A DNA stretch of 21,225 nucleotides from a virus: the IMG/VR virus record IMGVR_UViG_3300042894_003212, positions 1 to 21,225 of that record; one strand, written 5' to 3'. Numbering within the stretch: position 1 is the stretch's first letter; each line of letters opens with the position of its first letter. Positions 87-20,687 of the stretch are shown here, piece after piece. The translations under genes and the position numbers were made by a program. A model generated the notes under the pieces. That model had not been told where the DNA came from. It made no database searches and worked only from the letters and a program-made list of their open reading frames with translations.

Positions 87-509
87 ATGTCTAGTTACAC
101 AAAAACAACTTCAACATTTATTAAGAGGAATGTCAGATACTCTGATTTGGGTATCAACTTTGGCAGAAATCCCTTCAACAGTGATCTTAATAGAATTACT
201 GAGGTTGACAGTGTAAAGAGAGCCATTAAAAGTTTAGTCTTGACTAACAGATACGAAAGACTTTTAGATCCTGAAATTGGTGGAAATGTCAGAGCTCTTT
301 TGTTTGAACCTATGTCTAGTATGACAACAACAGTTTTAGAAGATTATATAACAGACACAATTAAGAATTATGAGCCTAGGGCAATCCTTGATAAGGTAGT
401 TGCCACGCCAGATTATGATAGAAATTCTTACGAAGTAACAATACAATTTAGAATTAACTCAGTTGAGCAACCACAAACACTTGAAGTTGCTCTAGAGAGG
501 ATAAGATAA
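87..509 (+). CDS. 25: Baseplate wedge subunit, T4 gp25 homologue
   Basis: The protein has 140 residues, close to T4 gp25 (132). Gp25-family proteins form the inner baseplate ring, share ancestry with type VI TssE, and nucleate the sheath around the spike. The characteristic core is visible: an N-terminal arm ending in DLGINFGRNPF (about residues 20-30), a helix with VKRAIKSLVLT (43-53), then ERLLDPEIGGNVRALLFEP (57-75), which holds the family's conserved R-x-x-L-F-E-P segment. A C-terminal beta region follows. The ATG at 87 has TAGAGG 6 bases upstream and a late promoter just before that. The stop lies one base before gene 6, so the two are cotranscribed. Length and motif are both intact. Confidence 0.93.
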   Translation: MSSYTKTTSTFIKRNVRYSDLGINFGRNPFNSDLNRITEVDSVKRAIKSLVLTNRYERLLDPEIGGNVRALLFEPMSSMTTTVLEDYITDTIKNYEPRAILDKVVATPDYDRNSYEVTIQFRINSVEQPQTLEVALERIR

Positions 510-510
510 T

Positions 511-2310
511 ATGGCAAATGGATTCTTAACAACTTCTGAGCTAGATCTACAGAACTACAAATCTAGCTTAAAAACATTTCTATCCCAGCAAGAGCAATTC
601 AAAGATTATGATTTTGAAGGCTCAAACTTATCTGTATTACTGGATCTTCTTGCCTATAATACCTTCATGAATGGTGTGTATCTAAACCTGGTTGGTAGTG
701 AGATGTTCTTAGATACATCTCAACTTAGAGAATCCATTGTTTCGCATGCTAAGGAACTGAACTATACGCCACGTTCTAGAACAGCTGCTGTTGCCTATGT
801 TAATATTACTATTACACCTGATGATACGCCAGATTCTATTACAATTCCAAAATATTATGAGATCAGTGGTAGAACAGATGATAATACTACCTACTTCTTT
901 ACGACTGATGAAACACTTACAATCAGGGCAAACAATGGCTTCTATACAGCTGCTAATGTAGCAGTGTATGAGGGTAACATTGTTAAAGAAGTGTTTATAG
1001 CTAATGGGTCGGCACGCTATCTATTACAATCTGCTAATGTTGATATTGAATCAATTAATATTACTGTTAAAGAATCAAACACAGCAACGACGGAAGTAAA
1101 GTACAATAAAGAAACTTTCCTATTTGATCTTGATAATACAGATAATATCTATTTTATACAAGGCGCGGAAGACCATTTATATGAAGTTGTTTTTGGTAAT
1201 GGGGATATTGGTAGGGAACTTACCGATGGTAACTTAGTTACTATAAACTATAGAGAAACAAATGGGCTCGATGCCAATGGTGTTGAAGTGTTTACTGCTC
1301 CAAATGCTGTTGAGGGGTACACTACTATAGCAATAGCGACAGTTAGTGCTGCCGCATCCGGTGCAGAACATGAAACTGATGAAGAAATTAAGTTCAATGC
1401 TCCTAGATACTTCCCTACACAAAATAGAGCTGTGACAGTAGAAGATTATATTGCTCTAACAAAACAAGCATTCCCATCCCTGGAAATTGTTACAGCATTT
1501 GGTGGTGAGGAAACAGAACCTAAACAATTTGGTAAGGTAATTGTTGCAGCTAAACCAATTGGTGGTACTAAGTTGCCTACACCACTAAAGACGCAAATTT
1601 TTAACTTCCTAAAGGAAAGATCTGCTATCTCTATTGATCCAGTAGTTATAGATCCGGAATATTTCTTTGCGGAAGTTGTGACAGAAGTGCTCTACAATAT
1701 TAATGAAACAACAAGATCTGAAAGAGATATTGAAGCTCTTGTTGAGTCAACTATTTTATTATTTGCTAGTGACAATCTTGCTAAATTTGGTTCTGATCTT
1801 AGATACTCCAAACTTGTTAAAGCCATTGATGATTCTGAATCTGCCATTATTAGTAACAATACAGAATTAAGAATTATTAAGAATGTTGAAGTTGACACAG
1901 GTGTTCCATTTAGAATTGCATTCTCCTTTGAAAATGAATTAAGAAGAGAAGTGTCAACAACAAGAAAAATTTATGAAGACACAACATCCACAATTGAGTC
2001 TTCATTGTTTACATTCAATTTAAATAATATAGATTACCTTGCCAAAATTAAAGACGACACCCAAGGCAATCTAATGATTATATCTGTTGTCAATGGAGTT
2101 GTACAATTATTAAAAGATAAGATTGGTACAGTTGATTATACCAATGGTACAATATCTATTGGTGCTATTGTATACGATGATGTTGGTTTAGATAATGAAT
2201 TAGAAATTTATGGTAGAACAAAGAAGTTAGATATAGAAACAAATGCTAACAAGGTCCTTCAGATTGTATCTGGAAACCTTGTTGTTTCAGCCCGCGGCAT
2301 TAGAGCATAA
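511..2310 (+). CDS. 6: Baseplate wedge subunit, T4 gp6 / baseplate J-like homologue
   Basis: The protein has 599 residues, against 660 in T4 gp6. Gp6 dimers link neighbouring wedges and form the continuous inner ring of the baseplate. The N-terminal segment (about residues 9-100), with LLDLLAYNTFMNGVYLNL and LRESIVSHAKELNYTPRS, is typical of gp6 in marine T4-like phages. Further on are FGNGDIGREL (about 228-237) and PRYFPTQNRAVTVEDYIALT (about 298-317), the baseplate-J-type signature in which an R-AVT-DY segment precedes a beta domain. The C-terminal 150 residues look like an added beta-rich region. The start at 511 has AGAGAGG about 10 bases upstream. The stop overlaps the next start by one base (TAATG), which suggests coupled translation. 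Confidence 0.92.
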   Translation: MANGFLTTSELDLQNYKSSLKTFLSQQEQFKDYDFEGSNLSVLLDLLAYNTFMNGVYLNLVGSEMFLDTSQLRESIVSHAKELNYTPRSRTAAVAYVNITITPDDTPDSITIPKYYEISGRTDDNTTYFFTTDETLTIRANNGFYTAANVAVYEGNIVKEVFIANGSARYLLQSANVDIESINITVKESNTATTEVKYNKETFLFDLDNTDNIYFIQGAEDHLYEVVFGNGDIGRELTDGNLVTINYRETNGLDANGVEVFTAPNAVEGYTTIAIATVSAAASGAEHETDEEIKFNAPRYFPTQNRAVTVEDYIALTKQAFPSLEIVTAFGGEETEPKQFGKVIVAAKPIGGTKLPTPLKTQIFNFLKERSAISIDPVVIDPEYFFAEVVTEVLYNINETTRSERDIEALVESTILLFASDNLAKFGSDLRYSKLVKAIDDSESAIISNNTELRIIKNVEVDTGVPFRIAFSFENELRREVSTTRKIYEDTTSTIESSLFTFNLNNIDYLAKIKDDTQGNLMIISVVNGVVQLLKDKIGTVDYTNGTISIGAIVYDDVGLDNELEIYGRTKKLDIETNANKVLQIVSGNLVVSARGIRA

Positions 2311-4295
2311 TGAAAGAACTAGAAAAGTTTATATCTCCATTTATTGCCAGTCAATTTCCCTCTATCTATAAAGAAGAGGGTCCTCTATTCATTGCATTTG
2401 TAAAAGCATATTTTGAGTGGCTTGAATCAGAAAACCAGGTCATTTACGATTCTAGAAGGTTGCTAGAATATAGAGATATTGATAAAACAGTAGATGTCTT
2501 TATTAATAATTTTAAAAAGAAATATATGTTCCCTATCCCAGAAGATATTGCTGGCGATAAGGTTTTGCTGCAAAAGCACATTAAAGAAGTATATGGATCT
2601 AAGGGTACAGAGCGAGGCCTAAAACTTCTATTCCAACTTTTGTTTGCTGATAACATTAGTGTATACAAACCTGGGGATGATGTTTTTAGGTTGTCAGATG
2701 GTGATTGGAATAGAGACATTTATCTTGAGGTATCCTTTAAACCTTTCAATAGTTTATTTGTTGGTGAGTTTATTAGAGGCCGTATATCTGGCGCAAGGGC
2801 CTATGTTGAAAGTTTCCAGACAAAATTTGTTAATAATAAAAACATAAACATTTTTTATCTAACGGATGTAGTTGGTAACTTTAGACATGATGAAGTTGTT
2901 CTAATTGATGAATCCAAATTGCCAGAAGGTGAGGTTCCATCTGTAACAGCAATTAACTCACCAAAGATTATTGGTTCAATGACAGAAGTTGATGTTTCAA
3001 ATAGAAGCTCGCCATTTGGTTATACTGTTGGCGACATACTGGAAGTACAAGGTAGAGGTTCTCGCGGTAAGGTAGTTGTAACAAAATTAAAAGAACTTGA
3101 TGGTACAATTTCATTTAATCTAGAAGATGGTGGCTCAGGTTATACTGTTAATAATACTGTTTTCTTGATTAAAGGTCCTGTCACAGGGCTTGTTATAGAG
3201 GCCGGTGGCACAGGTTATAGCAATACAGATGTCATAACATGTTCAAACGGAACAGCAAATGCAACAATAACCTTAGCTGGAGCTTTGGGTGTTGGCGGTG
3301 TAATTCTTGCTAATAACATTAATGTAGTTAATGGCGGTAATGGATTTTTAACAACAAATGCATTTACTGTTACAGTTGCAATAGCAAACTCAACTGGCGG
3401 AGCCTCAGCAGGCCTTGGCGCAAATCTAGTGCCAGTAATTGCAGGTGGCGGCGACCAGGCAGGTTTAAGAATTGGCGCTTTAACCAATGTTAAATCTCTT
3501 TTTTCATCTGCTGTAAAAATTAATACAATTGGCCAAACACTAAATTATATTGTCACTGCCAATAATGTTGATAATACACTTATTGGTCAATTATCATATC
3601 CAACTGGAAATGGTTATGGTCTTGCTTCAAATGTGGCAGCAGGCTTTGATACAATCCTCAAAGATGCGTTAAGCTTTCAGAATTATGAAGTTGGTACAAT
3701 ATCTAAAATCTTTACAACCAATCCTGGCCAAGATTATACAACGAATGTACAAATTACAGTGACAGATACTGTCATAGGACTAATGGAGCTACCCGACAAA
3801 GAACATCCTGCTGGCCGCGGCGAGCAAGGTAATGGGCAACTTGGCAACAATGCCGTTGTAACTGGCGTTGCTGGGTTTGGCTCTGATGCTCTGGGAGAAG
3901 TCAAAGTTATTGACTCAGGTCTAGGTTATGAACAAAGAGAAGAAGCCCTTCTTGTTTCATTGTCTAACACAAACCTAATAACATCTGGCACTGTATTACT
4001 AACAAGACAGGGTCAGGGTGAAGGTAATTTCAAATCAACTCGTGGATTTTTAAATTCTGACAAGTTCATTCATGACAGTTTTTATTATCAAGACTATTCT
4101 TATGAAGTAAGATCATCAGTTGTATTCAATAAGTATAGTGACCTTCTAAGAAAGCTTTGGCATCCAGCTGGTGTCGAAAAGTTTGGTAGAGTTCTTGTAA
4201 GCAATGAAGTCACCTCTGCAACACCAGACGTTATACAGCAAGCATATATAGGGGATGGGTCAACGACGACGTTTGCTATCCCAGGTGGAGCATGA
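2310..4295 (+). CDS. Conserved virion structural protein at the gene 7 position (probable baseplate wedge component)
   Basis: The protein has 661 residues. The N-terminal 145 residues, mostly helical, include FPSIYKEEGPLFIAFVKAYF, EYRDIDKTVDVFINNFKKKY, GSKGTERGLKLLFQLLF and YKPGDDVFRLSDGDW. This combination is typical of a structural protein family widespread in marine T4-like phages. It sits between genes 6 and 8, where T4 has gene 7 (1032 residues), so a gp7-like wedge role is inferred from position; I see no direct sequence match to T4 gp7. From about residue 270 on the protein is built from several small beta modules with a G-x-G-Y core (GGSGYTVNN, GGTGYSNTD, GGNGF, DSGLGYEQ). It ends in AYIGDGSTTTFAIPGGA, which looks like the first half of a module that continues in the next gene. 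Its TGA lies inside the ATGA overlap with that gene. Confidence 0.75.
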   Translation: MKELEKFISPFIASQFPSIYKEEGPLFIAFVKAYFEWLESENQVIYDSRRLLEYRDIDKTVDVFINNFKKKYMFPIPEDIAGDKVLLQKHIKEVYGSKGTERGLKLLFQLLFADNISVYKPGDDVFRLSDGDWNRDIYLEVSFKPFNSLFVGEFIRGRISGARAYVESFQTKFVNNKNINIFYLTDVVGNFRHDEVVLIDESKLPEGEVPSVTAINSPKIIGSMTEVDVSNRSSPFGYTVGDILEVQGRGSRGKVVVTKLKELDGTISFNLEDGGSGYTVNNTVFLIKGPVTGLVIEAGGTGYSNTDVITCSNGTANATITLAGALGVGGVILANNINVVNGGNGFLTTNAFTVTVAIANSTGGASAGLGANLVPVIAGGGDQAGLRIGALTNVKSLFSSAVKINTIGQTLNYIVTANNVDNTLIGQLSYPTGNGYGLASNVAAGFDTILKDALSFQNYEVGTISKIFTTNPGQDYTTNVQITVTDTVIGLMELPDKEHPAGRGEQGNGQLGNNAVVTGVAGFGSDALGEVKVIDSGLGYEQREEALLVSLSNTNLITSGTVLLTRQGQGEGNFKSTRGFLNSDKFIHDSFYYQDYSYEVRSSVVFNKYSDLLRKLWHPAGVEKFGRVLVSNEVTSATPDVIQQAYIGDGSTTTFAIPGGA

Positions 4296-7200
4296 GTACA
4301 CTAACAGTCAAAGTAAATGGAGTATTGCAGGTACTAGGTACCGATTATACCATTTCTGGTGGTAGTGTTGTATTTACCAAAGCACCTAGTGCCGAGGCCT
4401 CTGTTGAGATTAGAAAAGAAATACCACGGAGTATTCTTGAGACTAGCTTCCAGATTGAGCAAATCAGACTAACAGAGCTAACCACTGCCTATAGCACCCA
4501 GACCATTGTATCTTCCACATTCAATACAAATATTGGAACAGGTACCACAACAACGTTTGTTACTGCATACTCTACTTCTAAATCTACCGATACTACTGTA
4601 GCAACATCCAAGAGTACAACGACAGCGTACATTTCAGAATTTGACACTGTCATTGGTACATCTAAGAACACCACATCTCAGTATGTTACAGCTTATCAAA
4701 CAGTATTTAATACAGTATCTGTGTTTGATACAGTTATTGTTACATCCTATGCCACAACAAAAACAACATCAACAGTATTTGAAACAACAATTGGTACAAA
4801 TAGAGTAACATCTACAAGTAGAGCCACAACAATAACAACAATCTTTGATAGTAGTAGAACAACTACAACAGTTTATAGTACTGCTTATACAACAATTTAC
4901 GCTACCCAGACAGCTTACAATACAAATAGAAATACTGTATATAATACCTCAATTGCTACTCTAACAAGCAAGAGTACCAATACATCTCAAACAACTTCAA
5001 CTGTCTATAATACATTCTATGCATCACAGTATGGAACAACCACTGTATTTAACACATCTAAAGACACAAACTTTGTCACTTCAAAGTCCACAGATACAAC
5101 TATTAACACATCGAAGGCAACAAACACAACAACTACCTATGCTACAATTTTTGATACTGCTGGTTCAACAACAAGAAGTACAACATCTCTTTATGTAACT
5201 GTATTTAATACATCTAAATCAACAGCTACTGTCTTTAGCACAACATTTGATACCATCTTCAATACCAACAAATTAACATCAACTAGTAAATCAACAACTT
5301 CTGTATTCAATACAATAACTACATTTGTTACAACATTTGATACTGGTTACAATACTAGTAAGTCAACAACATCGTTGTTTAATACGACAACAACATTTAA
5401 TACATCATATGCAACTAACTTTGCAACGACAACAGCATTTGAAACAAATGTAGCAACTCAAACTACCGTATCACAAAATACTGCCAGAAATACAACTACA
5501 GTATTTGGTACAGCTACAAGTGTTATAACAACAACTGCGTTTAATACCACAACCACGTTTAACACAACGTATGCAACTAACTTTGCCACTAATACAACAT
5601 TTGAAACAAATGTAGCAACCCAAACCACTGTATCACAAAATACTGCCAGAGATACAACTACAATATTTAGTACAGCTACAAGTGTTATAACAACGACTGC
5701 GTTTAACACTACAACCACGTTTAACACAACGTATGTAACTAACTTTGCAACGACCACAGCATTTGATACAAATGTTCTAACAGAAACAAACCGTGGAACA
5801 AGCAAAGCGACTGAAAAAACAATTGGTACAAGTAGAGCCACAGCAACTTCTAGGGCCACGACAACGCTGTTTGATACAACAACATCGTTCGATACAACAA
5901 CCACATTTGGCACCACAACAACCTTTGATACGACATATAGTACGACTTATCAAACAACTTCTACAACTGAACAAACAGATACCTACAATTCTGGTTCTGG
6001 AACTGCTACTGCCCCATCAGGTGCAATATCAGTGGTTATTAAAGTTTGGGGTGGCGGTGGTGCAGGTGGTACTGGTCGCCAACAAGAGTTTACAGGCGGC
6101 GGAGGTGGAGGCGGTGGCTATGGAGAACATAACGGTACTGGTTTAACTGTTACAGGTGGTGTGACGTTTGGATATGCTGTTGGTGCAGGGGGTGACGCTT
6201 CAACCCAAAACGCACCTACAGATGGTGGAACATCACAAGTTACTGGCGATGGTAATAATCCTTCTTTTGCTCTATCAGGATATGGTGGTTCTAAAGGCTC
6301 CAACGCAACAATTAATGATGATGGTGATGGCGGTGATGGTGGAACTGCAGCAGGAGGCACAACTAATACAACTGGAACTGCAGGCGAGTTTGGCGGACCT
6401 GGTGGGGCTAGTGCAAATGGTGGCGCCGGCGGCAATATGGGAATTGGAGGCGTTGGTGGTGATGGCACTGCTCCTGGTGGTGGCGGTGGTGGTGGCGGGT
6501 ATACCTCTGGTGTTACAGGGTATCGTGGTGGTTATGGTGGTGCTGGTCGCGTTCAATTTATTTGGACAATTCAAAGTAACATTAACACATCCCGCGTAAC
6601 AAGTGCAGCAACATCTAGAACCACAGACACGTCTAGGGCAACGGCTACATCTAGAGCTACTGCTACATCTAGATCTACAACAACTACATTTAGCACAACA
6701 ACATCATTTAATACAACATACCAAACTACAACAACATTTGTTACTGGATTCCAGACAACTACTATATTTGGTACCTCTAGAGGCACAACAACAGTCTTCG
6801 ACACTGCAAAAAGTACTGCAGCTCTCACTGGCACAAGTAAAAGCACCACCTCTATATTTGATACAGCAACGTCAGCTGTAACATCTACTACTTTTGTTAC
6901 TACCTATCTGGCGGCTACAACAACTGCACTTGTAAGATCTCGAAGTACGACAACTATATTTGATACTGCAAGGAGCACAGCAGCTGCCACTGCTACAAGT
7001 AAAAGCACCACATCTGTATTTGATACAGCAACGTCAGCTGTAACATCTACTACTTTTGTTACTACCTATCTGGCGGCTACAACAACTGTATTTGTAACAT
7101 CACGAGGTACAACAACTGTATTTAATACAGCAAAGAGTACTGCTGCAGTTACAGGAACAAGTGTTGCTACAACCACTGCATATAATACATTAGTTGCTAC

Positions 7201-10200
7201 AGCTCTATCAACAAGTAGGGCAACCGTGACTAGTAAAGCCACAACAACTGTATTTGATACAACTACTAACTTTGATACAAATTTTGCTACAGCTAGAAAT
7301 ACATCAAAGGCTACAGATACTACGTTTGAAACTAACTTTGGTACATCCAAGGCAACAGACACAACCTTTAGCACTCTATTTAATACAGCTGCTGCAACAT
7401 CAAAAAGTACTGCAACAACAACCGTGTTTGGCACTGCATATGCAACAACTACTTCATATGATACTGTTTATGGTACAGTATTTGCAACAAACAAAACAAC
7501 GGACACTTCTACTGCAACAGTAAAGTCAACATCTAAGTCAACAACCTCTGCGTTCCAGACAACGACAGTCTATAATACAGATACTACGTTTGAAACAAAT
7601 AGAAACACAATATTTAATACTGTCATAGCAACAGACACTTCCCGCGATACTGTAATCCTAACTTCAAAGAGTACCTCAACATTATTTGAAACTGCTATTG
7701 ATACTGTATACGAAACAAATATTGCAACAACCTCTGTATTCAATACAGTATTCAATACAGCAAAAAATACTACGAGTGTATTTAATACAGCAATTGACAC
7801 AGCCTATGCAACCAACATTGCAACAGCTACATCTAGATTTACCACAAAGGGTACAGAGACTGTAACATCTACAGCTTATGAAACTGGTTATGCAACCCAG
7901 ATCTTAACATCCAAGAGTACCTCAACTGTATTCAACACTGTATTTGCAACAACAACTGTATTTGATACAGGACCAAATACAACAAGAAATACATTGACAC
8001 AATCCGTTTATGCTACAACATCAAGTACACTGAAGGGCACAGACACATCTATCCTAACAGAGTATAGAATTGTTGTTACACAAACATTGTTTAGCACTAA
8101 TATTGAAACAACATACGAAACAATTGCTGGTGTTTTAACAACTATTGCGACAGACGTGTTAACTGGTAAAACTACTGATACCTCATTTGCTCTTGAAACA
8201 AGAAATACTTTAAGAGATACAGCATTCCAAACAACAAACCCAACGTTGATTGCAACTACAACATTATTCCAAACATCATATAATACAAACCAGGTTACAC
8301 GTTATGTAACATTCAATACAGCGTTTGAAACAAGTAAAAATACATCTACTGTATTTGATACAGCAACGACAACTGCATATAACACAACAAGCACATTCAA
8401 CACATCAACTGTTATATCATCCTCAACTTCTCGCAATACTGTGGTAACTTCTTCAACAGTATTTGATACAAGTAGGTCTACAATATTTGCTACTGGCACA
8501 TCTAGAACTACAACATCCTCATATCAGACAAATACAACAACAATATTTGCTACTGGATATGATACAAACGTTGCAACAACATCAGTATTTGTAACAGCAT
8601 TTTTAACTGTGTCAACATTTGACACAAGCCAGACTACATCTAGAAACACAACTCTGTCAAAGGGTACAGAGATCATTACATTCTTTGCTACATCACAATT
8701 AACATTTAAACCAACAAGTACCTCACGCAGCACGGTTTATGTTAGTGACTTCACTACTGTATCTCGCACAACAGAATTTAATACTTTAACAGGTATAACA
8801 ACAGCGTTTGATACAAAAAGAGGTACAAACCAGACAACTGTGTTTGATAGCTCAACTTCATTCCTAACTAGCTTTGCCACAACGCTAAACAAAACAACTA
8901 CGACAATTACTAATAAGAGCACTCTAAGTGCCTATAACACATTAGTTAACACATCAAAAGTTACTGACATAGGAACATCTACAGATACTACAACTGCATT
9001 TGACATTTTGACATCACGTAATACAGCATATAATACTACTAAGACAACACAAAGTACTCTAGTAACAACATTTGATACAGTGTTTAATTCTACCTTTGCC
9101 ACATCAAAGGCAACGTCAACAAGTAGGAGTACACTAACATCCACATCATCTGTTATTACAACAACATATGACACATCAAAGAGTACTGTTAATAACACTA
9201 GCACAACATATCAAACAACATTTCAAACTGATTCTGGAGCAGGTACATTAGTCAGTACATCTGCTCTAACAACAAAATCGACAGGAACATTAACATCAAC
9301 CGTTACTGCCAAGTTGACAACAGTTGATACAACTCAAAGCACCGAAACACAATACTTAATGTCAAGCAGTTTTGGTACAGAGACTGTGTTTGAAACTGTT
9401 GTGGGTACAGCATATGACACAACTACTACATTCAACACGCAAACAATATTCCAGACATCTTCCGTATTTGACACAACAACATCATTCCAGACCGACTCGG
9501 GTGCTGGTACATTGAAGGCAACATCTAAGACTACATCTACTGCTATCTTAACAAATACAAATAAGACAACTGCAACATCAAGAGTTACAGTAACAGCAAG
9601 TGGAACATACTACGTAACATCTAAGACTACAGCTTCCATGTATGATACTACGAAGAATACAGTGGCTGGTCAAACTATTGCTCTAACAAGTACTTCTAAG
9701 AATACAACAACAGTATATTTGTCTGAATATCAATCAACAATCAATACTACAACATCATACTTGTCTTCTTACTCAACTGTTATTGCTACGAGCAGACAGA
9801 CCCAGGCTTTGACAACATTTGGTACATCTAAGACAACAGAAACAATATTCCAAACTGCTGCTGGTGGTGGTACATTATTTAACACAACAAACAATACTAC
9901 AACAGCATTTGACACTGTCTACCTAATCACCCAGTCTGTTGCCTCAACAGCTACCACATTCCAGACTGATTCAGGGGCTGGTACATTAAAGGGTACTTCT
10001 CGAAATACAATTACAACTTACACAAGATACTTGAGTGGTAAGCAAACATCTACTGTGTTTACGACAGCATTTGCTACAGATCCATTTGTAACAACGACTT
10101 TTGGTACATCTAGGAGCACACTGACAGTTTACCCAACTGTATTTACTGAATTTGGTACTTCTAAAGACACCACAACAACATACCAGACAGATTCAGGTGC

Positions 10201-11047
10201 TGGTACAATGGTGAGTACCTCACAAAGTACAACTACTGCATTTAATACAGTATATGCAACTGGTGCATTGACCCAGAAGTCAACTACTACAGCATTTGAT
10301 ACAGTCTATAGCACCGGTCTTGCAACGACAAGAGATACTGCTACATTCTTAACCACATCAACTGCATATGTTACAGAGACAGCAAGAATTACTGGCTCAG
10401 GTAAAATCACACAGTTTGCAACCACAACAACCATCAACACTGATACAGCAAGAGGTACCTCAACCACATTCCAGACAGATTCTGGCGCAGGTACATTAGT
10501 TAACACATCAAGAAATACATTTACTGGTACTATTACATCATTTAACACTACCACTGTAACTATTAGTGATATGTTGACAAGCAAGTCAACAGCTACACAA
10601 ACTGATCAAGGGACGTTGGTAACAACATCAACAGCTACATCATATAGTACAGAAACAGAGTATACCACATCAAGTGGTATAACAGTATTTTTAACATCTG
10701 TTAACACAACAACAGTGATTGACTTTAGTATTAGAAACACTGAATATCAGACTCTCACATCCGTAGAAACTGGAACAGTGTTTGAAACAGGTGACAGACA
10801 AACAACACGACTAACACAATTATTAACAAATACTGAAACCTCTCAATTGGTAATTGATACAACTAGAACAACGTCTGTTGCTACAACATTTGATACATCT
10901 ACAGCTTACTTGACAGATTCTGGGGCTGGTACAATGGTTGCTACATCTAAGTCAACCTCTACATCTAGAATAACAGATAAGGCAACAGACACAAATTATG
11001 ACACAGCCATTCAAACAACATATGAAACTGTTTATATAAATAACTAG
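4292..11047 (+). CDS. Giant Thr-rich repeat protein, probable long fibre or adhesin
   Basis: The protein has 2251 residues. Residues 1-46 are a small beta module (KVNGVLQVLGTDYTISGG...), the kind usually preceded by GDGSTTTF. Residues from about 47 to 564 and from 761 to the end are low-complexity repeats built from units such as TSKSTT, TVFNT, TTFDT and TSRAT. Thr is about 39% in the segment counted (25 of 64). Thr, aromatics and Lys or Arg fall on every second residue, as expected for long beta strands with two different faces. Residues 565-760 are a Gly-rich module holding the only Trp residues (KVWGGGG, FIWTIQ). I found no Cys. The repeat runs to the last codons, with no tip, chaperone or enzymatic domain. 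ATG 4292 overlaps the previous stop (ATGA), with AGGTGGAG just upstream. A fibre role is inferred from size, repeats and context. Confidence 0.7.
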   Translation: MSTLTVKVNGVLQVLGTDYTISGGSVVFTKAPSAEASVEIRKEIPRSILETSFQIEQIRLTELTTAYSTQTIVSSTFNTNIGTGTTTTFVTAYSTSKSTDTTVATSKSTTTAYISEFDTVIGTSKNTTSQYVTAYQTVFNTVSVFDTVIVTSYATTKTTSTVFETTIGTNRVTSTSRATTITTIFDSSRTTTTVYSTAYTTIYATQTAYNTNRNTVYNTSIATLTSKSTNTSQTTSTVYNTFYASQYGTTTVFNTSKDTNFVTSKSTDTTINTSKATNTTTTYATIFDTAGSTTRSTTSLYVTVFNTSKSTATVFSTTFDTIFNTNKLTSTSKSTTSVFNTITTFVTTFDTGYNTSKSTTSLFNTTTTFNTSYATNFATTTAFETNVATQTTVSQNTARNTTTVFGTATSVITTTAFNTTTTFNTTYATNFATNTTFETNVATQTTVSQNTARDTTTIFSTATSVITTTAFNTTTTFNTTYVTNFATTTAFDTNVLTETNRGTSKATEKTIGTSRATATSRATTTLFDTTTSFDTTTTFGTTTTFDTTYSTTYQTTSTTEQTDTYNSGSGTATAPSGAISVVIKVWGGGGAGGTGRQQEFTGGGGGGGGYGEHNGTGLTVTGGVTFGYAVGAGGDASTQNAPTDGGTSQVTGDGNNPSFALSGYGGSKGSNATINDDGDGGDGGTAAGGTTNTTGTAGEFGGPGGASANGGAGGNMGIGGVGGDGTAPGGGGGGGGYTSGVTGYRGGYGGAGRVQFIWTIQSNINTSRVTSAATSRTTDTSRATATSRATATSRSTTTTFSTTTSFNTTYQTTTTFVTGFQTTTIFGTSRGTTTVFDTAKSTAALTGTSKSTTSIFDTATSAVTSTTFVTTYLAATTTALVRSRSTTTIFDTARSTAAATATSKSTTSVFDTATSAVTSTTFVTTYLAATTTVFVTSRGTTTVFNTAKSTAAVTGTSVATTTAYNTLVATALSTSRATVTSKATTTVFDTTTNFDTNFATARNTSKATDTTFETNFGTSKATDTTFSTLFNTAAATSKSTATTTVFGTAYATTTSYDTVYGTVFATNKTTDTSTATVKSTSKSTTSAFQTTTVYNTDTTFETNRNTIFNTVIATDTSRDTVILTSKSTSTLFETAIDTVYETNIATTSVFNTVFNTAKNTTSVFNTAIDTAYATNIATATSRFTTKGTETVTSTAYETGYATQILTSKSTSTVFNTVFATTTVFDTGPNTTRNTLTQSVYATTSSTLKGTDTSILTEYRIVVTQTLFSTNIETTYETIAGVLTTIATDVLTGKTTDTSFALETRNTLRDTAFQTTNPTLIATTTLFQTSYNTNQVTRYVTFNTAFETSKNTSTVFDTATTTAYNTTSTFNTSTVISSSTSRNTVVTSSTVFDTSRSTIFATGTSRTTTSSYQTNTTTIFATGYDTNVATTSVFVTAFLTVSTFDTSQTTSRNTTLSKGTEIITFFATSQLTFKPTSTSRSTVYVSDFTTVSRTTEFNTLTGITTAFDTKRGTNQTTVFDSSTSFLTSFATTLNKTTTTITNKSTLSAYNTLVNTSKVTDIGTSTDTTTAFDILTSRNTAYNTTKTTQSTLVTTFDTVFNSTFATSKATSTSRSTLTSTSSVITTTYDTSKSTVNNTSTTYQTTFQTDSGAGTLVSTSALTTKSTGTLTSTVTAKLTTVDTTQSTETQYLMSSSFGTETVFETVVGTAYDTTTTFNTQTIFQTSSVFDTTTSFQTDSGAGTLKATSKTTSTAILTNTNKTTATSRVTVTASGTYYVTSKTTASMYDTTKNTVAGQTIALTSTSKNTTTVYLSEYQSTINTTTSYLSSYSTVIATSRQTQALTTFGTSKTTETIFQTAAGGGTLFNTTNNTTTAFDTVYLITQSVASTATTFQTDSGAGTLKGTSRNTITTYTRYLSGKQTSTVFTTAFATDPFVTTTFGTSRSTLTVYPTVFTEFGTSKDTTTTYQTDSGAGTMVSTSQSTTTAFNTVYATGALTQKSTTTAFDTVYSTGLATTRDTATFLTTSTAYVTETARITGSGKITQFATTTTINTDTARGTSTTFQTDSGAGTLVNTSRNTFTGTITSFNTTTVTISDMLTSKSTATQTDQGTLVTTSTATSYSTETEYTTSSGITVFLTSVNTTTVIDFSIRNTEYQTLTSVETGTVFETGDRQTTRLTQLLTNTETSQLVIDTTRTTSVATTFDTSTAYLTDSGAGTMVATSKSTSTSRITDKATDTNYDTAIQTTYETVYINN
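5376..5790 (+). repeat. Tandem 162-bp (54-residue) repeats, set 1, about 2.5 copies
   Basis: Equivalent points recur exactly 162 bases apart: the TATGCAACTAACTTTGC-like segment begins at 5408, 5570 and 5732 (TATGTAACT in the third). Units encode a series such as TTFNTTYATNFAT, ETNVATQTTVSQNTARNTTT and ATSVITTTAFN. Copies differ mainly at third codon positions and a few residues. The repeat lies just before the Gly-rich module of the giant protein. Confidence 0.9.
5984..6571 (+). other. Gly-rich adhesin-like module inside the giant repeat protein (residues 565-760)
   Basis: This segment breaks the Thr-rich pattern. It begins with a beta segment, SGAISVVIKVWGGGGAGG, and passes through many oligo-Gly runs, including two of eight Gly separated by beta strands (LTVTGGVTFGYAVGAGG). 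It closes with GGYGGAGRVQFIWT. The arrangement, an opening hydrophobic strand with VWGGGGAGG, a middle TFGYAVGAGG strand and a closing GRVQF strand, is that of the glycine-rich domain common in phage tail fibres. Oligo-Gly loops also form the receptor-binding part of gp38-type adhesins. The local base composition is more GC-rich than the flanking repeats. It is the only likely globular part of the protein, so it is the best candidate for surface binding. Confidence 0.75.
6760..7150 (+). repeat. Tandem 162-bp (54-residue) repeats, set 2, about 2.4 copies
   Basis: The period is again exactly 162 bases: TTC or TTT codons of the FDTA/FNTA segment lie at 6797, 6959 and 7121. Units encode FDTARSTAAATATSKSTT followed by VFDTATSAVTSTTFVTTYLA. 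Bases 6855-6926 and 7017-7088 (72 bases) are identical. The unit sequence is unrelated to set 1 apart from the general Thr pattern. This set lies just after the Gly-rich module. Confidence 0.9.
9224..10936 (+). repeat. Dispersed QTDSGAGT(L/M) motif, six clear copies and one degenerate
   Basis: The motif is encoded at 9224-9250, 9488-9514, 9962-9988, 10184-10210, 10472-10498 and 10910-10936 (LTDSGAGTM in the last). A degenerate QTAAGGGTL is at 9851-9877. Spacing is irregular, about 110-440 bases. Most copies follow an aromatic residue and precede (V/K)xTS. The motif occurs only in the C-terminal part of the giant protein (about residues 1645-2215). DSGAG would make a turn or bulge in an otherwise uniform Thr-rich strand pattern. 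Confidence 0.85.
10229..10336 (+). repeat. Two tandem 54-bp (18-residue) units
   Basis: Two adjacent 18-residue units, TTTAFNTVYATGALTQKS and TTTAFDTVYSTGLATTRD, are encoded at 10229-10282 and 10283-10336. Eighteen is one third of the 54-residue period seen elsewhere in the same protein, so 18 residues may be a basic structural unit. Confidence 0.75.
11035..11042 (+). promoter_or_regulatory. T4-type late promoter (TATAAATA) overlapping the end of the giant gene
   Basis: A second perfect TATAAATA late box lies over the final Tyr-Ile-Asn codons of the giant repeat gene, 28 bases before the gene 8 start at 11070. A ribosome binding site (AGGG, about 6 bases before the ATG) follows. It would let gene 8 and the downstream structural genes be transcribed independently of the 6.7-kb gene in front. 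The match is seen directly; activity is inferred. Confidence 0.75.
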
Positions 11048-11069: not shown

Positions 11070-13121
11070 ATGTTAACCAAATTTAAGCGAAACGTAGTTG
11101 ACCTTTTTATAGATTCTGTTGCTAATACACTGAGCACAGATCTTTCTGGTACAGTAACAGTCAACACTTCATCCGCAAATGTCACAGGTTCGGGAACAAA
11201 CTTTACTGTTGATTTTACAGTAGACGACCGCTTGTTTATTGGTTCTGAATCAAGACAAATTATCTCTATTGTTAATAATACATTAGTTGTTGTTGGTTCT
11301 GCATATTCAGCAAACGCGTCCGCCAACACATATAAGAAGGGTAGACTAAAAAACGATAGTTATTACGTCTTTGCTGCAAGACAGTCCCCATATGATAATG
11401 AAAGCATAACAGCAAACACAATTGACGATGATTACGAATCTCAAGTATTTGTTCAAGATGAATTAATGTTTGGTATGAAGATTACAGACGATGATGTTTT
11501 GCCAATGGCAGCAAAAAGAGAGTGGCAATCAAACACAGCATATGCAATATATGATGATAAAGATAATGAACTATTAGCAAAAGCTTTCTATGTTATAACG
11601 TCTGAAAATAAAGTATACAAATGTATTAACAATGGTCTTGGAGATATCTCAACTGTTGAACCATCCCACACAGAGGTTGGTTATCCACCTGAAGAATCCG
11701 ATGGCTATAGATGGTTATATCTGTACACGATTAATAATATTGATTATCTGACATATGCTACAGAAAATTACATTCCTGTAATTGAAAATGCCAACGTAAA
11801 GAGCTCAGCCATCGATGGTTCTATTTTTAATATTGTTGTAGAAGCCAATGGATCTTCATATCCCGCTGATAGTGGTACAATCAGAACTGATCCAAATGGT
11901 AATAATTATATTATCCAAATCAGAACTGGGACATCTACTTCAAATGATTTCTTTGCTAATTGTGCTATCACAATTACTAATGATTCAACAAACTTAACCT
12001 ATGTTAAAGAAATCAGAGATTATGTTTCAAATGGGGCTGGCAACTTTGTTATTCTAAAAGTTCCATTCTCTACAAGCCAAGTATCAAACAACAATCCATA
12101 TTCAATTGGCCCATTTATTAAAATTGATTCTAAAACAGGCTCACATTGTATAGCATCAGCAGTAATGCAGAACATCTCAAATACTAACTTCACTGGTAGT
12201 GTTGAGATGATTGATATCATTAATCCTGGCAGAAACTATAAGCAAGCAAATGTTTCTGTTCAAACATCGGTAGGTTTTGGTAGTGGTGCCCAAGTTAGAG
12301 CCATTATGTCACCACCTGGTGGCCATGGATCAAATGCCAAGGATGAATTATATTGCCAATCAGTTGGTATTGGTGTTGTATTCTCAAATACAGCAACATT
12401 CTCGTTCTCTTCAGATGTAGAATTTAGATCTGTAGGTATATTAAAGAATCCTCTATCTTCCACAACATCTGATGGTACAGGAACTATAGATCTTGTTGCT
12501 AATAGCTTAAGCGTGATAGGTGTTGGTACAAAGTTTACAACAGAATTAAATATTGGCGATAATATCATTTATTTGGATGAGGAAAAAGAAGTATCATCCA
12601 TTGCCAATAATACAAGCCTAATACTAAAAAATCCATTTTCATATACTGTTGTTGCAGAAACATTTGATATTAGAAAAAGATTCTTCAACGCCTTTTTCAA
12701 TCAAACAGTAGCTATCACTGCTTCTAATACTACCCCTGCTTTACTACAACCAGGTGAATTCATTCTTGGTTCTGATGGTGCAGGTGGTGGATCACAAGTA
12801 CAGGCTAAGGTTGCATTTGCCAATACATCTAAGGTCGTATTAACTGGACTTGATAGATCACAGGCGCGCGGCAATAATAGCGTAATCACATTCGTAAATG
12901 ATATCGTGATGGATGGTGTTGGCTATATTGTAAATGGCGCCGATAGCCCAGAAATAGTTGCATCGGGAGCTAAATACTCTAAGGCAGCTGGTAATACAGC
13001 TATTACAACAGTTCCTGATTTGAAATTGTATTCAGGCGAGGTTTTGTACTTACAGAACCTATTGCCAATACAAAGATCAAACACAACAAACGAACAAATT
13101 AGACTAGTAGTTAAGTTCTAG
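11070..13121 (+). CDS. 8: Baseplate wedge subunit, T4 gp8 homologue (enlarged)
   Basis: The protein has 683 residues, about twice T4 gp8 (334). Gp8 sits as a dimer on the gp6-gp7 wedge. The family core is seen in REWQSNTAYAIYDDKDNELL (about 151-170), YVITSENKVYKCINNGLGD, SDGYRWLYLYTINNIDYLT and the C-terminus YSGEVLYLQNLLPIQRSN...IRLVVKF. The C-terminus aligns with the T4 gp8 end (SGEMIYMENRPPI...INILFTF). A segment with PPGGHGSNAKDELY is typical of marine gp8. The extra length comes partly from two copies of one small beta module, at residues 27-91 and 469-536 (G-T-x-F-T ... I-x-N-N-T-x-L), inserted into the core. The ATG at 11070 has AGGG 6 bases upstream and a late promoter at 11035. The stop is 11 bases before the next start. 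Confidence 0.88.
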   Translation: MLTKFKRNVVDLFIDSVANTLSTDLSGTVTVNTSSANVTGSGTNFTVDFTVDDRLFIGSESRQIISIVNNTLVVVGSAYSANASANTYKKGRLKNDSYYVFAARQSPYDNESITANTIDDDYESQVFVQDELMFGMKITDDDVLPMAAKREWQSNTAYAIYDDKDNELLAKAFYVITSENKVYKCINNGLGDISTVEPSHTEVGYPPEESDGYRWLYLYTINNIDYLTYATENYIPVIENANVKSSAIDGSIFNIVVEANGSSYPADSGTIRTDPNGNNYIIQIRTGTSTSNDFFANCAITITNDSTNLTYVKEIRDYVSNGAGNFVILKVPFSTSQVSNNNPYSIGPFIKIDSKTGSHCIASAVMQNISNTNFTGSVEMIDIINPGRNYKQANVSVQTSVGFGSGAQVRAIMSPPGGHGSNAKDELYCQSVGIGVVFSNTATFSFSSDVEFRSVGILKNPLSSTTSDGTGTIDLVANSLSVIGVGTKFTTELNIGDNIIYLDEEKEVSSIANNTSLILKNPFSYTVVAETFDIRKRFFNAFFNQTVAITASNTTPALLQPGEFILGSDGAGGGSQVQAKVAFANTSKVVLTGLDRSQARGNNSVITFVNDIVMDGVGYIVNGADSPEIVASGAKYSKAAGNTAITTVPDLKLYSGEVLYLQNLLPIQRSNTTNEQIRLVVKF

Positions 13122-13132
13122 AGGTTCTAAGA

Positions 13133-16100
13133 ATGGCTCTTGATATCGCAAACACAGTATTGAATGCATCACCATATTTTGATGACTATAATGAGGATAA
13201 GAACTTCCATAGAGTTCTCTTCAGACCATCCGTTGCCGTCCAGGCTCGCGAACTAAACCAAGTTCAGTCCATTCTTCAGAACCAAATTGAGAGATTTGGC
13301 CAGCATATTTTCAAAGATGGTACAATTATCAAGGGTTGCGGTCTTTCATATCTTAATAGAATTGATTATGTTTCTATTAATGATCAGTTTGATACAAACA
13401 CCTCTCTGTCATCAACTAATACACAGTTTGTTAATGCCATTGCTGTAGGTTCAAATTCAGGCGTTGTGGCCCAGATTATTTCTGCAAGAGAGGGTTTCAA
13501 GGCATCCTCAAATCCAGCTAGATTCTTTATTCAATACACCCAGCCTGGTTTCAATAACCAAAGAACATTTGACCAAAATGAAACAATCAGCATTTATCAG
13601 CCTGGTAAATCCTACATTGATAAAGTTATTCTTCAAGTTAATACTGTAATTACTGTCAACACAACAAACTTCCCTGTTGGCTCAAAGTTAATTAATAACG
13701 TAAACCAGGCCCGTGGCTTTGTTGTTAATGCCTATGCTAACACATTTGGTAACTACGTTGAATTAAGAAACGTAAGAAAGACATTTGCAACTGGTGATGC
13801 CTTGGTCCTTTCAACAGATGCAGCAGTAACTGCAAATGTCGTTAGTGTAGATTACGAGAGCTATGCAAACTCTCTGATTGACACAGTACTAACTCTTACA
13901 AACAATACAGAGCTTGGTTACACATCGCTTGGCTTTGCCCATGGCGTTGTTGTATCACCTGGTATTATTTTCCACAAAGGTCACTTTGTTAAGGTTGATG
14001 CTCATACAACAATTACCAATGAGGATACACCAGACCCAAGTGGTAAGATTCTATATTTCAAGACAGAAGAAGAAGTTATTAAGGAGACAGATGATTCATC
14101 TCTATATGACAATGCTTCTGGTACAACAAACATTAATGCACCTGGTGCCCACAGATTAAAGCTTACATCAACATTGATTGCAAGAAATAAGAATGGTGCC
14201 AATACCATTTCTAATACAGATATTGCATTCCCTATTGTTGAGTTTGGTAACAATGGTCCTATCTTCCAAAAGACAAACACAGAATATAATATTATTGGTG
14301 ATGAGCTAGCAAAGAGAACATTTGAAGAGTCAGGGCATTATGTTGTTAAGCCATTTACAATCTTAACAAAGCCACATGGTAGTGATTCAGACAAATTTGT
14401 TTATGAAGTTGGCCAGGGCTTATCATACGTTAAGGGTAAGAGAATTGAATTCCTAAACAATCAAAATGTTGAGGGAAGAAAGGGCGTTGATACTATATCA
14501 GAATCAGAACAGCCAATCACAATGGCGTATGGTAATTACGTTATTGTTGATGATTTAAGAGGTTATTTCCCAGTCAACCAGTCTGTAGAAGTAAGATTCT
14601 ACAATGCAGCCCAGGATGCTGTATCTGGTGAAAGATTGCCTGTTGCTAATACAGCAACTGGTACAATCGTTGGATACGCTAACATTCGAGCAGTTACCTA
14701 TATCGATTCAAGCACTGCCTTGAAGGGTTCACACCTAGCACAATATAGACTATACATCTTCAACTATAGACCAGTTGGTACGTTTACATTCCAAGATGCG
14801 AGATCAGTTGTTTACGATGATGGGTCAAACGCTCAAGCATTCGCTGATCTAGTATTAACTGGGGGTGTTCCTGTACTACAGGAGAGTACACAAACTCCTC
14901 TGTTCTTTAGTCTGAATGCAAAGGCTGTAAAGAATTTAAGAAACAGCAATAATGTTTCTGATACAGACTATTTCTACACAGCTGCTAATACAGCTGGCGC
15001 TCAGCTTCAATCAACTGGTCTATTAACATTTGGTATTGGATCTCTCCAGGGTATCCTTGGATTTACTGGTAGTTCTAATGCTGATGAACTAAAGGTTGAT
15101 GTTATAGTAGCAGACGCCAATGCTCAATGCGCAAGCGCCCTAGTTGGTACAGTTGCGGCATCGGCCACAAATATCATTACTGGCACAAGTACACTATTTA
15201 CTGAGGACTTTGTTCCTGGTGAGTGTATCAGATTCACAGGTCTGCCTTCAGCAAACACACATAGAATCGTATCAATTACCAACTCCACGTCAATGACTAT
15301 TAACACAGCAGTAAGTGTTGTTGCTAATACCTATACGAGAGTGCACTTGAGAGGTTCAACAATTGCGTTGAACCCAGCTGCTGGCAACAAGAGAACAATG
15401 GTTGTCAATCCAGGCACCGAGACTGCAACAATTAATCTTGGTAATACCTATGTTGGCACAACAAACGTTGTTGTTAGATTCCAGGCTCTCAACAATGAAG
15501 CTAACCCAATATCCAAGAGAATTAATAGAAATTCAGTAGTCATTATTAATACTGCCAATAATGTTGGCGGAAATACAGGCCCATGGTCACTTGGTGTACC
15601 TGATGCATTAAGACTGACGGGTGTTTATATTGGTTCAAATTCATCAAACTTTGTTACCCAGACAAACAGGGTTAACGACTTTATTCTTGACAATGGTCAG
15701 AGAGACACCCACTACGACCACGCTAGGATTTCTCTATCACCAGCATCACCTCTTACAACATTAGCTAACACATTTTTGTTGGTTCAATTTGATTGCTTTA
15801 CTGCAAATGTTACAGCTGGTGAAGGATTCTTCTCGGTAGAATCATATCAGGCAAATGATGCAGCTACTGCAAATACAGAGTTAACACTAAGAACATACGA
15901 AATTCCATCGTACACCACAACTTTTGCCAACACAGTAGTTACATACGATCTCAGAGATGTAATTGATTTTAGACCATATAAAGCTAACACAGCCAACATC
16001 ACATCATCATTTACATCAGCTACAATCAATCCGCCTGCAACAAATACATTCAATTCAAATACAACCACATATACTCCATATCCTGGTTCAACGCTAACAA

Positions 16101-18977: not shown

Positions 18978-20687
18978 ATGTCAGATGCAATAAAATATAC
19001 AAGTCTTTCACAAACATTTAGAGTAACAGCTCCACCAGGAGTCCCTGGTGTTTATGTTTCGAAGCTTGGTTTATTCTTTAAAAAGAAATCCGATTCATTA
19101 GGCGTACAAGCATTTTTGATGCAGGTTACCAACAATCTACCTGATCAAGATAAGATTATTCCAAACTCTCTTGTGACAGTTGACACAGAGAATGTTGCCA
19201 TATCCACTGATGGATCATCCGAAACACAATTTGTTTTCCCTCAACTAGTTTATCTAAATGCTGGGGAAACTTATGCATTTGGTATCAAGGCTATTGGCAA
19301 CTCTCCTGACTATGAAGTTTGGGTTGGTGAACTAGGAAGAAGAGACCTAGCTACAGATAAGCCAATTGGTTCAAACCCAGTTGTTGAAACAGCTTACTTT
19401 GCAGGTAACAAGCAAAAGTATGCTGACTTAATTAACCAGGATATTAAGTTTAATCTTTATAGAGCCAGATTTACAGCCACAAGTGGTACTGCAGCATTAA
19501 GAAATAATAATACAGAAGTTATTTCATTCTATAATCTATCTAATATCACAGGTACAATTGACATTAGAGCAGGAGACCATGTTTATGCCTGGTCCAATGC
19601 TTATGTTAATACATCTGCAAATGCTGTAGTAACTAAACTAGATACAGTTAATAACTTACTATATGTAAAGAACTCTTCAGGCAATTTTACAGCAAACACG
19701 GATATTGTATTCGTAAGAACTGGTGAAGAAGGAAACCCATCATCTAATAACTCTGGTATGCTAGGCGTAGCAAGAATTGACAGTACAGCAAATAATGGTC
19801 TAACCAAGTTTGCCTACCATGCAATTGTACCAAAACTAGCTATAAACAAGATTCCATTTACTGGCGTTACACTTACATATAAGGGCGCAAAGTATAATGG
19901 AACAAAGTATGTTCAGGATGATAATAAGCTAATTGATAATAATACAGAATTAGAATTTAGAGATAGAACAAGATATTGGCTTGGCGAGACAGATGAGAGA
20001 GACGCAACCAATGAATTTAGAACAGGTGTAACTCCATCTGGCAAGCAGTGTTCAAATTCCTCTATTATTATTGAAGCAGCCATTAGTTCCGATAATGATT
20101 ATATTTCTCCAGCAATTGACTTAACTCGTAATAATGTTATTCTATTGCGCAATGTTGTTAATGCAAATACAACAAATGAGCATAAAGATGGTGGTGGTGC
20201 TAAATCAAGATACATCTCTAAGGTTATTACACTAGAGGATGAGCAGGAAGCAGAAGATCTAAGAATCTTTATTACTGCTAATAAGCCAGCCAATACAGAA
20301 ATTCATGTCTATACAAAGGTATGGAGTGACACAGATCCAGAACCATTTGATACAAAGGTCTGGTCTAAGATGACATACGAAAATCCAGCCACAGTTAGAA
20401 ACACTAATGCACCAGAAGAGTATCTAGAATATGTTTACTCATTTGCAACAAGTGCAACTCTTGCTGGTAATGCATTAGCTGCATTCCAGGCAAACAACAC
20501 TGTACCTGTTTCATATCTTGGAGCTAACTCAACAGGTGGCGTAACTGGTGGTCCAGTATATGGTGGCAGTGGCTATAATAAAGTTATTAAAAAGTTTGCT
20601 GTTAAATTGGTATTGACTTCTGATACTGGTTTAGAGCATCTTTATCCTAAGGTTAATGATTTAAGAGTTATTGCTCTACAGATGTAA
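18978..20687 (+). CDS. Virion structural protein, companion of the DUF4815-like protein
   Basis: The protein has 569 residues. The N-terminal 170 residues form a recognisable marine-phage module: LSQTFRVTAPPGVPGVYVSK, LGLFFKKKSDSLGVQAFLMQ, FVFPQLVYLNAGETYAFGIK and SPDYEVWVGELGRRDL. It resembles segments usually found in large tail or fibre-attachment proteins next to DUF4815-type sequences. Residues about 172-260 carry another small beta module (NITGTIDIRAGDHVYAW), and the rest is beta-rich (RDRTRYWLGETDERD, NTEIHVYTKVWSDTDPEPFD). There is no signal peptide or membrane segment. The ATG at 18978 has GAGG about 8 bases upstream and lies 16 bases after the preceding stop. Gene order suggests joint assembly with the 1942-residue protein. 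The biochemical role is unknown. Confidence 0.72.
   Translation: MSDAIKYTSLSQTFRVTAPPGVPGVYVSKLGLFFKKKSDSLGVQAFLMQVTNNLPDQDKIIPNSLVTVDTENVAISTDGSSETQFVFPQLVYLNAGETYAFGIKAIGNSPDYEVWVGELGRRDLATDKPIGSNPVVETAYFAGNKQKYADLINQDIKFNLYRARFTATSGTAALRNNNTEVISFYNLSNITGTIDIRAGDHVYAWSNAYVNTSANAVVTKLDTVNNLLYVKNSSGNFTANTDIVFVRTGEEGNPSSNNSGMLGVARIDSTANNGLTKFAYHAIVPKLAINKIPFTGVTLTYKGAKYNGTKYVQDDNKLIDNNTELEFRDRTRYWLGETDERDATNEFRTGVTPSGKQCSNSSIIIEAAISSDNDYISPAIDLTRNNVILLRNVVNANTTNEHKDGGGAKSRYISKVITLEDEQEAEDLRIFITANKPANTEIHVYTKVWSDTDPEPFDTKVWSKMTYENPATVRNTNAPEEYLEYVYSFATSATLAGNALAAFQANNTVPVSYLGANSTGGVTGGPVYGGSGYNKVIKKFAVKLVLTSDTGLEHLYPKVNDLRVIALQM

Follow-up and report, generated by a model that had tools for sequence, protein, structure and literature searches.

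The reach, stiffness and host range of phage fibres depend on their shafts, of which only a few types of fold have been described. The closest described systems include two β-helices of phage T4: water and an anion bound by Lys can be accommodated inside the gp5 helix (PMC3004832), and the gp12 helix has six residues per turn on average and no clear repeat (PMC3004832, PMC5537660). Triple β-helices contain about 31 residues per 15 angstroms, and the delta protein of Orsay virus forms a pentameric β-fibre with short strands (PMC7565637). In the T4 baseplate, gp7 is monomeric (PMC3004832).

Here, we analysed a viral fragment of 21,225 bases (the whole source record, called the window below), which carries part of a T4-like myovirus baseplate operon. 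The gene order is gp25, gp6, gp7, fibre and gp8, followed by genes for a DUF4815/VrlC-like and a second VrlC-like protein (Table 1). In T4, gp6, gp7 and gp8 likewise follow each other in this order. In all close relatives with sequence over this site, the fibre gene is directly flanked by gp7 and gp8. In the original prediction the protein started at position 4,430, which turned out to be internal to the open reading frame; the actual start is at 4,292 (4292-11047, plus strand). The 2,251-residue product is probably hung on the tail baseplate and would form the shaft of a host-binding fibre. Two observations concern the neighbouring proteins. Residues ~470-526 of gp8 match, besides the gp8 profile, the tail fibre family phrog_1980 (E 8.4e-10), and the stretch IQVTVNGLVQSPGVDYQVTGGGTTLNF in the C-terminal part of the first VrlC-like protein resembles the N-terminal domain of the fibre.

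Table 1. Features of the window, with loci in other records in the last row (residue numbers refer to the fibre protein)
Feature	Position	Strand	Basis or remark
gp25-like baseplate wedge protein	87..509	+	PF04965 E 2.8e-12; phrog_261 E 1.3e-44
gp6-like baseplate wedge protein	511..2310	+	PF21379 E 4.5e-17; phrog_219 E 2.7e-165
gp7-like baseplate wedge protein, probable fibre anchor	2310..4295	+	phrog_17744 E 2.9e-139; junction read in six genomes
ATGA overlap of gp7 stop and fibre start	4292..4295	+	In the window and five compared relatives (GTGA in L005)
Thr-rich fibre protein, 2,251 aa, 730 Thr	4292..11047	+	ORF and composition
Second part of split T7-tail-fibre N-terminal-like β domain	residues 1-44 = 4292..4423	+	PF03906 E 1.7e-3 alone
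Shaft 1, single parity throughout, 534 aa	residues 50-583 = 4439..6040	+	Parity path; C-terminal end reaches into insert boundary
162-bp (54-aa) tandem duplication in shaft 1	5377..5775	+	54-aa gap at this site in L006, L007 and L003
Gly_rich_2 insert, swappable cassette	residues ~568-756 = 5993..6559	+	PF21722 E 7.1e-7, 29.9 bits, cut-off 24.3
Shaft 2, single parity throughout, 504 aa	residues 755-1258 = 6554..8065	+	Parity path
Second 162-bp (54-aa) tandem duplication	6803..7137	+	
Two shaft runs, 150 and 303 aa, one parity break between	residues 1341-1490, 1491-1793 = 8312..9670	+	Parity path
Region with six (Q/L)TDSGAGT motifs	9224..10933	+	TDSGAGT at residues 1646, 1734, 1892, 1966, 2062, 2208
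Shaft run, 179 aa	residues 1952-2130 = 10145..10681	+	Parity path
C-terminal single-parity run, 65 aa	residues 2187-2251 = 10850..11044	+	Parity path
gp8-like baseplate wedge protein, directly 3' of fibre	11070..13121	+	phrog_438 E 4.9e-75; 37.7% identity to DLP6 gp8
DUF4815/VrlC-like protein	13133-18961		VrlC name taken from DLP6 and phiM7 neighbours
Second VrlC-like protein	18978-20687		VrlC name taken from DLP6 and phiM7 neighbours
Loci downstream of Thr-rich fibres	L195:10332-12792; L127:5521-7256; L234:8434-9994; L142:1604-3272		phrog_26179 in L127 and L195

The fibre protein had attracted attention by a two-residue alternation in residues 305-417 (bases 5204-5542), which was said to hold without a slip of the register. 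This is indeed the case, as all 57 odd-numbered residues belong to the proposed set (31 Thr, 13 Phe, 4 Lys, 3 Val, 2 Ser, 2 Tyr, 1 Gln and 1 Arg). The claim was even understated, because a two-state parity path over the fibre protein yielded slip-free runs far longer than 113 residues (Table 1). The six QTDSGAGT segments and the C-terminus also obey the alternation, as had been predicted, and the last ~20 residues (DTNYDTAIQTTYETV.INN) are kept in close relatives. Frequent parity breaks over the full length were not found, yet about a dozen occur in the C-terminal 45% (within residues 1259-2187), and the remaining ones lie in the N-terminal domain and in the Gly-rich insert (584-754).

The two faces defined by the parity path differ strongly in composition. 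Thr accounts for 52% of one face, and the frequencies on the Thr face versus the other face were 0.118 versus 0.008 for Phe, 0.070 versus 0.002 for Tyr, 0.057 versus 0.002 for Lys, and 0.052 versus 0.002 for Arg, i.e. these four residues are 15 to 35 times commoner on the Thr face. The opposite was true for Asn (0.005 versus 0.100), Asp (0.001 versus 0.072) and Gly (0.003 versus 0.065), and also for Glu. Because the parity model itself had assigned the faces, a shuffle test was used as an independent check. In residues 50-560, the same parity was kept in 81 of 83 successive F/Y/W/K/R steps, compared with 37.8 +/- 4.7 in the shuffles. For the gp7, gp8 and VrlC-like proteins of the window the parity measure was 0.38-0.47, and thus the pattern is absent from these neighbours. 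The predicted even separation of aromatic residues (4, 6, 10) was also recovered, with F/Y/W/K/R spacings of mainly 4 or 6, and less commonly 8, 10 or 12. Consecutive large residues on the Thr face were separated by one or two Thr/Ser in 142 and 103 cases, by none in 8 cases, and by three or more in 17. The shaft units therefore are mostly 4 or 6 residues long, PhixT(xT), and follow each other in no fixed order. Unit-lag autocorrelation of this order revealed no reproducible period; a z of 3-4 at lag 3 was found for two features, in the window sequence only.

Selection on the pattern was analysed by comparing the window with the relatives L003, L005, L006 and L007, counting well-flanked indels. 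In the stalk, all of these had an even length (2, 4, 6, 8, 10, 12, 54 and so on), and the sole odd one (5 aa) is located inside the Gly-rich insert, where indels of 1, 3 and 5 residues occur. The even indels represent about ten distinct stalk sites, for which the chance probability is roughly 1 in 1,000 (our own estimate, not a computed value). The alignments with the more distant L022 and L020 have some odd gaps but are less certain. In the stalk, dN/dS was 0.09-0.16 on the Thr face versus 0.18-0.25 on the other face, and the Thr-face substitutions among the aligned relatives were mostly Y/F, K/R and S/T exchanges. The dN/dS values by face indicate that the pattern belongs to a selected protein and not to drifting DNA repeats. 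The original proposal of a strand or stack with two unlike faces is thus strongly supported as a selected property, by the face composition, the even stalk indels and the Thr-face dN/dS.

In accordance with the original expectation, the shaft matched no known fold or repeat family in Pfam, PHROGs or the PDB (queries P0001, residues 305-417, A2 and A4). The whole fibre protein gave no match in Pfam, PHROGs, the PDB or tblastn against phages, a result to which low-complexity filters contribute, and no description of Thr-rich phage fibres of this kind was found in the open-access literature. The proposed structure prediction of monomers with AF2 led to pLDDT values of ~25-30 and no fold for the shaft. 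When residues 1-428 were modelled with 15 sequences, residues 1-44 folded and a helix was drawn at 50-66 with a pLDDT below 50. A relative with regular decapeptides (L148) reached 32.6 as a monomer. This failure would fit an obligate oligomer, and equally disorder or a fold outside the knowledge of the program. Ice binding by the Thr arrays was also considered; evidence for it was absent.

The junction of gp7 and the fibre gene indicates how the fibre may be anchored. The overlap of the two genes implies that their translation would be coupled. A programmed -1 frameshift was the other candidate at this junction, and translational coupling is preferred because no slippery heptamer was seen. The C-terminal ~20 residues of gp7 (AYIGDGSTTTFAIPGGA) form the first part of a split β domain, the second part of which is the N-terminus of the fibre. 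With the gp7 end joined, PF03906 was matched with an E value of 6.8e-6 and 26.3 bits, compared with a gathering cut-off of 25.2 and with 18.5 bits when the fibre was searched by itself, and AF2 modelled fibre residues 1-40 at a pLDDT of 78-89. In Stenotrophomonas phage DLP6 and in the uncultured phages L025, L049, L052 and L083, the conserved HPAG..FG end of gp7 is followed by the shaft within one chain; in other gp7 homologues the chain ends there or bears unrelated extensions. The shaft is therefore encoded beside or fused to wedge genes, the position of a T4-like baseplate-associated fibre.

Shaft 1 is followed by a Gly-rich insert (Table 1) with a local GC content of 0.48 versus ~0.36. The same site is Gly-rich in L006 and L022 and carries unrelated sequence in L003, L005 and L007. 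In these three relatives, the identity of the block of residues 551-750 was 0.00-0.20, and most of the flanking shaft is ~50-95% identical. In addition, DLP6, L025 and L049 contain a different globular-looking stretch early in the shaft. This modular replacement points to host contact and suggests that the cassette would be a host-contact module.

A DNA pattern for TxTxPhixTxPhixTxTxPhixT was found in at least 120 viral stretches, and a simple threshold identified a Thr-rich ORF in 85 of those listed. Among the matches listed, up to about 80 represent further viral loci, as a few frames are chance-like and some contigs are shared, and the Thr-rich ORFs are as long as 2,821 residues, with a Thr content that reaches 64% in segments of 100 residues. 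Many of these loci have other anchors than the window; the types found comprise gp7 fusions, VNDGGTLR-type and ISLSxI-type N-termini, and further short ones. A C-terminal FERITA...FWDGxW end is common to several of these proteins, and in L195, L148 and L142 the shaft genes adjoin genes of tail-fibre families. The N-terminal 177 residues of the L132 protein match one small PHROG of unknown function. A second gene of this type is present on the contig of L003 (L127:1310-5266). Its Thr-rich alternating product has 1,319 aa and differs in the N-terminus, and the next gene encodes a phrog_26179 member, a protein whose function is unknown. The scan of genome contigs revealed no long shaft among the matches listed; its top frames were short 'STIFSTSTGTS' stretches, which were judged to be chance or antisense frames. 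DLP6 is the sole isolate found with a shaft, and others may have been missed because BLAST masks low-complexity sequence. In the passages of the DLP6 description that were consulted no such shaft is mentioned, and the description does not contain the word threonine. Taken together, the fibre protein belongs to a class that is widespread among phages, and neither a structure nor a description of this class was found.

Several further observations were made at these loci. One relative has frequent Trp on the large-residue face (L204:2493-6299; TTTTWSTSFSTTTTW). The Thr-rich shaft at L060:9995-14643 spans overlapping ORFs in different frames and includes an ambiguous residue; the frame changes are probably assembly indels. 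Downstream of several Thr-rich fibres, proteins of ~300 residues with a HFMKSGN or HFFKSGN-like motif are encoded, along with further unidentified genes (Table 1), and in L195 a gene for a GT29-like glycosyltransferase (PF00777 E 4.5e-9) is near the fibre gene. A role of the HFMKSGN-type proteins and the GT29-like enzyme in fibre glycosylation is possible.

How might such a protein be built? In our best explanation, it would be a baseplate-anchored adhesion fibre that is fixed via gp7 and has a parity-coded in-register β shaft. As a whole, this reading has an even chance of being right. Its first part, the baseplate-anchored fibre, is very probable, and here the β domain made of the gp7 C-terminus and fibre residues 1-44 would link the two chains. 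Its second part, an in-register trimeric β shaft, is proposed tentatively, with somewhat less than even confidence. The shaft would consist of successive short β strands of 4 or 6 residues, whose even length would keep all Thr, aromatic and basic residues together on one face, with the opposite face made of small, polar or acidic residues; the two-face code is observed directly, whereas the fold is inferred. Parallel in-register chains, most likely three, would be wound into a stiff thin shaft like the triple-stranded β-helix of T4 gp5, but with a different core. When the parity test was applied to T4 gp5, gp7, gp12, gp34 and gp37, a strong signal was found only in the β-helix region of gp5 (z 7.4 at 441, compared with a maximum of 22.7 in the fibre), and therefore the shaft is best compared with a prism that resembles a triple-stranded β-helix and has strands of even length. 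The interior water and Lys-bound anion of the gp5 helix would make basic residues compatible with a core position. With the published rise of triple β-helices (PMC7565637), ~2,000 shaft residues would give about 100 nm, and the cassette may project from the shaft and bind the cell surface.

If T4 gp7 is a guide and gp7 is a monomer here as well, fusion to gp7 would make the shaft single-chained, which argues against a trimer. This leads to the alternative of a single-chain β-solenoid, one per wedge and six per virion, in which each turn would be hydrogen-bonded to the next and would have about three sides, each 4 or 6 residues long. The covalent fusions to gp7 in DLP6, L025, L049 and L052 are in favour of it, as are the regular decapeptides such as YNTSKSTTTT in one group of relatives, and even-sided coils would likewise maintain parity. 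However, the order of the units has no reproducible ladder period, which suits side-by-side in-register chains better than a coil of fixed turns. Furthermore, AF2 left even the regular decapeptide member unfolded, and neither face resembles a solenoid core. We therefore regard a solenoid as unlikely, albeit as the strongest competitor of the in-register trimer.

Slightly less likely still is an architecture that does not resemble triple β-helices, either an extended β ribbon with two faces or an in-register assembly of some other new type, such as a dimer, a pentamer or a lateral sheet. The 504-534 residues without parity slip and the near absence of Gly and Pro from the large-residue face are consistent with it, the AF2 and PDB profile searches were empty, and Orsay virus delta offers the precedent of a pentamer. 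However, no positive pointer to such an oligomer was found, and inspection of the shaft did not reveal the Orsay motif.

An O-glycosylated Thr-rich tether that is flexible and either mostly unfolded or similar to a mucin, with the cassette as binding head, would explain the high Thr content of one face and the AF2 pLDDT of ~25, and the glycosyltransferase gene of L195 would fit. However, neither disorder nor mucins need strict parity, even-only indels or face-specific selection. Moreover, Pro is rare in the fibre protein (12 of 2,251 residues), aromatic or basic residues recur at intervals of 4-6, and no such glycosylation enzyme was seen within the window. A tether is thus improbable. A low-complexity ORF upheld by DNA repeat expansion, without specific structure, is refuted by the selection data (stalk dS 0.25-1.3, dN/dS 0.09-0.25). 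The two tandem duplications speak for it but are a small share of the gene, its place between gp7 and gp8 is kept, and the pattern is present across many lineages.

A broader proposal is that the shaft represents a new class of fibrous β fold with a binary two-face code and even-length strands, which would serve as an interchangeable shaft of several unrelated phage lineages, on anchors of three or four kinds at the least and with up to ~2,800 residues. We put this forward with reserve, and it is rather more doubtful than secure. Fibres themselves are a known kind of object. A simple rule that is held over 500 residues and across phages, and that was missed by the predictor and databases used, makes the shaft a clear target for structural work and might also be a starting point for fibre design. 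Face parity and even indels provide an annotation signature for many proteins unnamed by family libraries, and the gp7 C-terminus is marked as a place of fibre attachment in phages.

The known β fibres differ from the shaft in their sequence hallmarks. Like the shaft, the C-terminal triple-stranded β-helix of T4 gp5 is a phage tail β fibre with strict in/out alternation and even strand length. However, it has octads with conserved Val and Gly in runs under 200 residues, whereas the shaft has units of 4 or 6 residues, has no Val/Gly core and is about 10 times longer; Gly and Val account for 0.3% and 2.9% of its Thr face, and for 6.5% and 9.5% of the other face. T4 gp12 and gp34 are also long phage tail fibres, but their triple β-helices have a hydrophobic Leu/Ile interior and no parity signal, and the shaft had no match in PDB searches; Leu and Ile together make up 4.8% of its Thr face and 9.1% of the other. 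That neither face has the Val/Gly or the Leu/Ile core of the known triple β-helices speaks against such a helix, and since these hallmarks were looked for and are lacking, we do not assign the shaft to that group. By inspection, the Orsay delta motif (V/L)x2Vx4V with three-residue loops is not present either. At the anchor, the gp7 end and fibre residues 1-44 score above the Pfam cut-off for Phage_T7_tail (PF03906), but the domain is split over two genes, and other T7 tail fibre regions were not found. The Gly_rich_2 domain (PF21722) is situated within a Thr-rich shaft, with ~550 and ~1,500 residues on either side. Another close counterpart is DLP6 gp7 (AMQ65900.1, annotated as baseplate wedge). 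Its gp7 core is common to both, with 47% identity, and is followed by a Thr-rich alternating shaft of the same kind with an inserted globular-looking stretch. In contrast to the window, DLP6 has a single fused protein of 1,288 aa, and its insert is an unrelated stretch of ~130 residues with just a weak DUF642 match.
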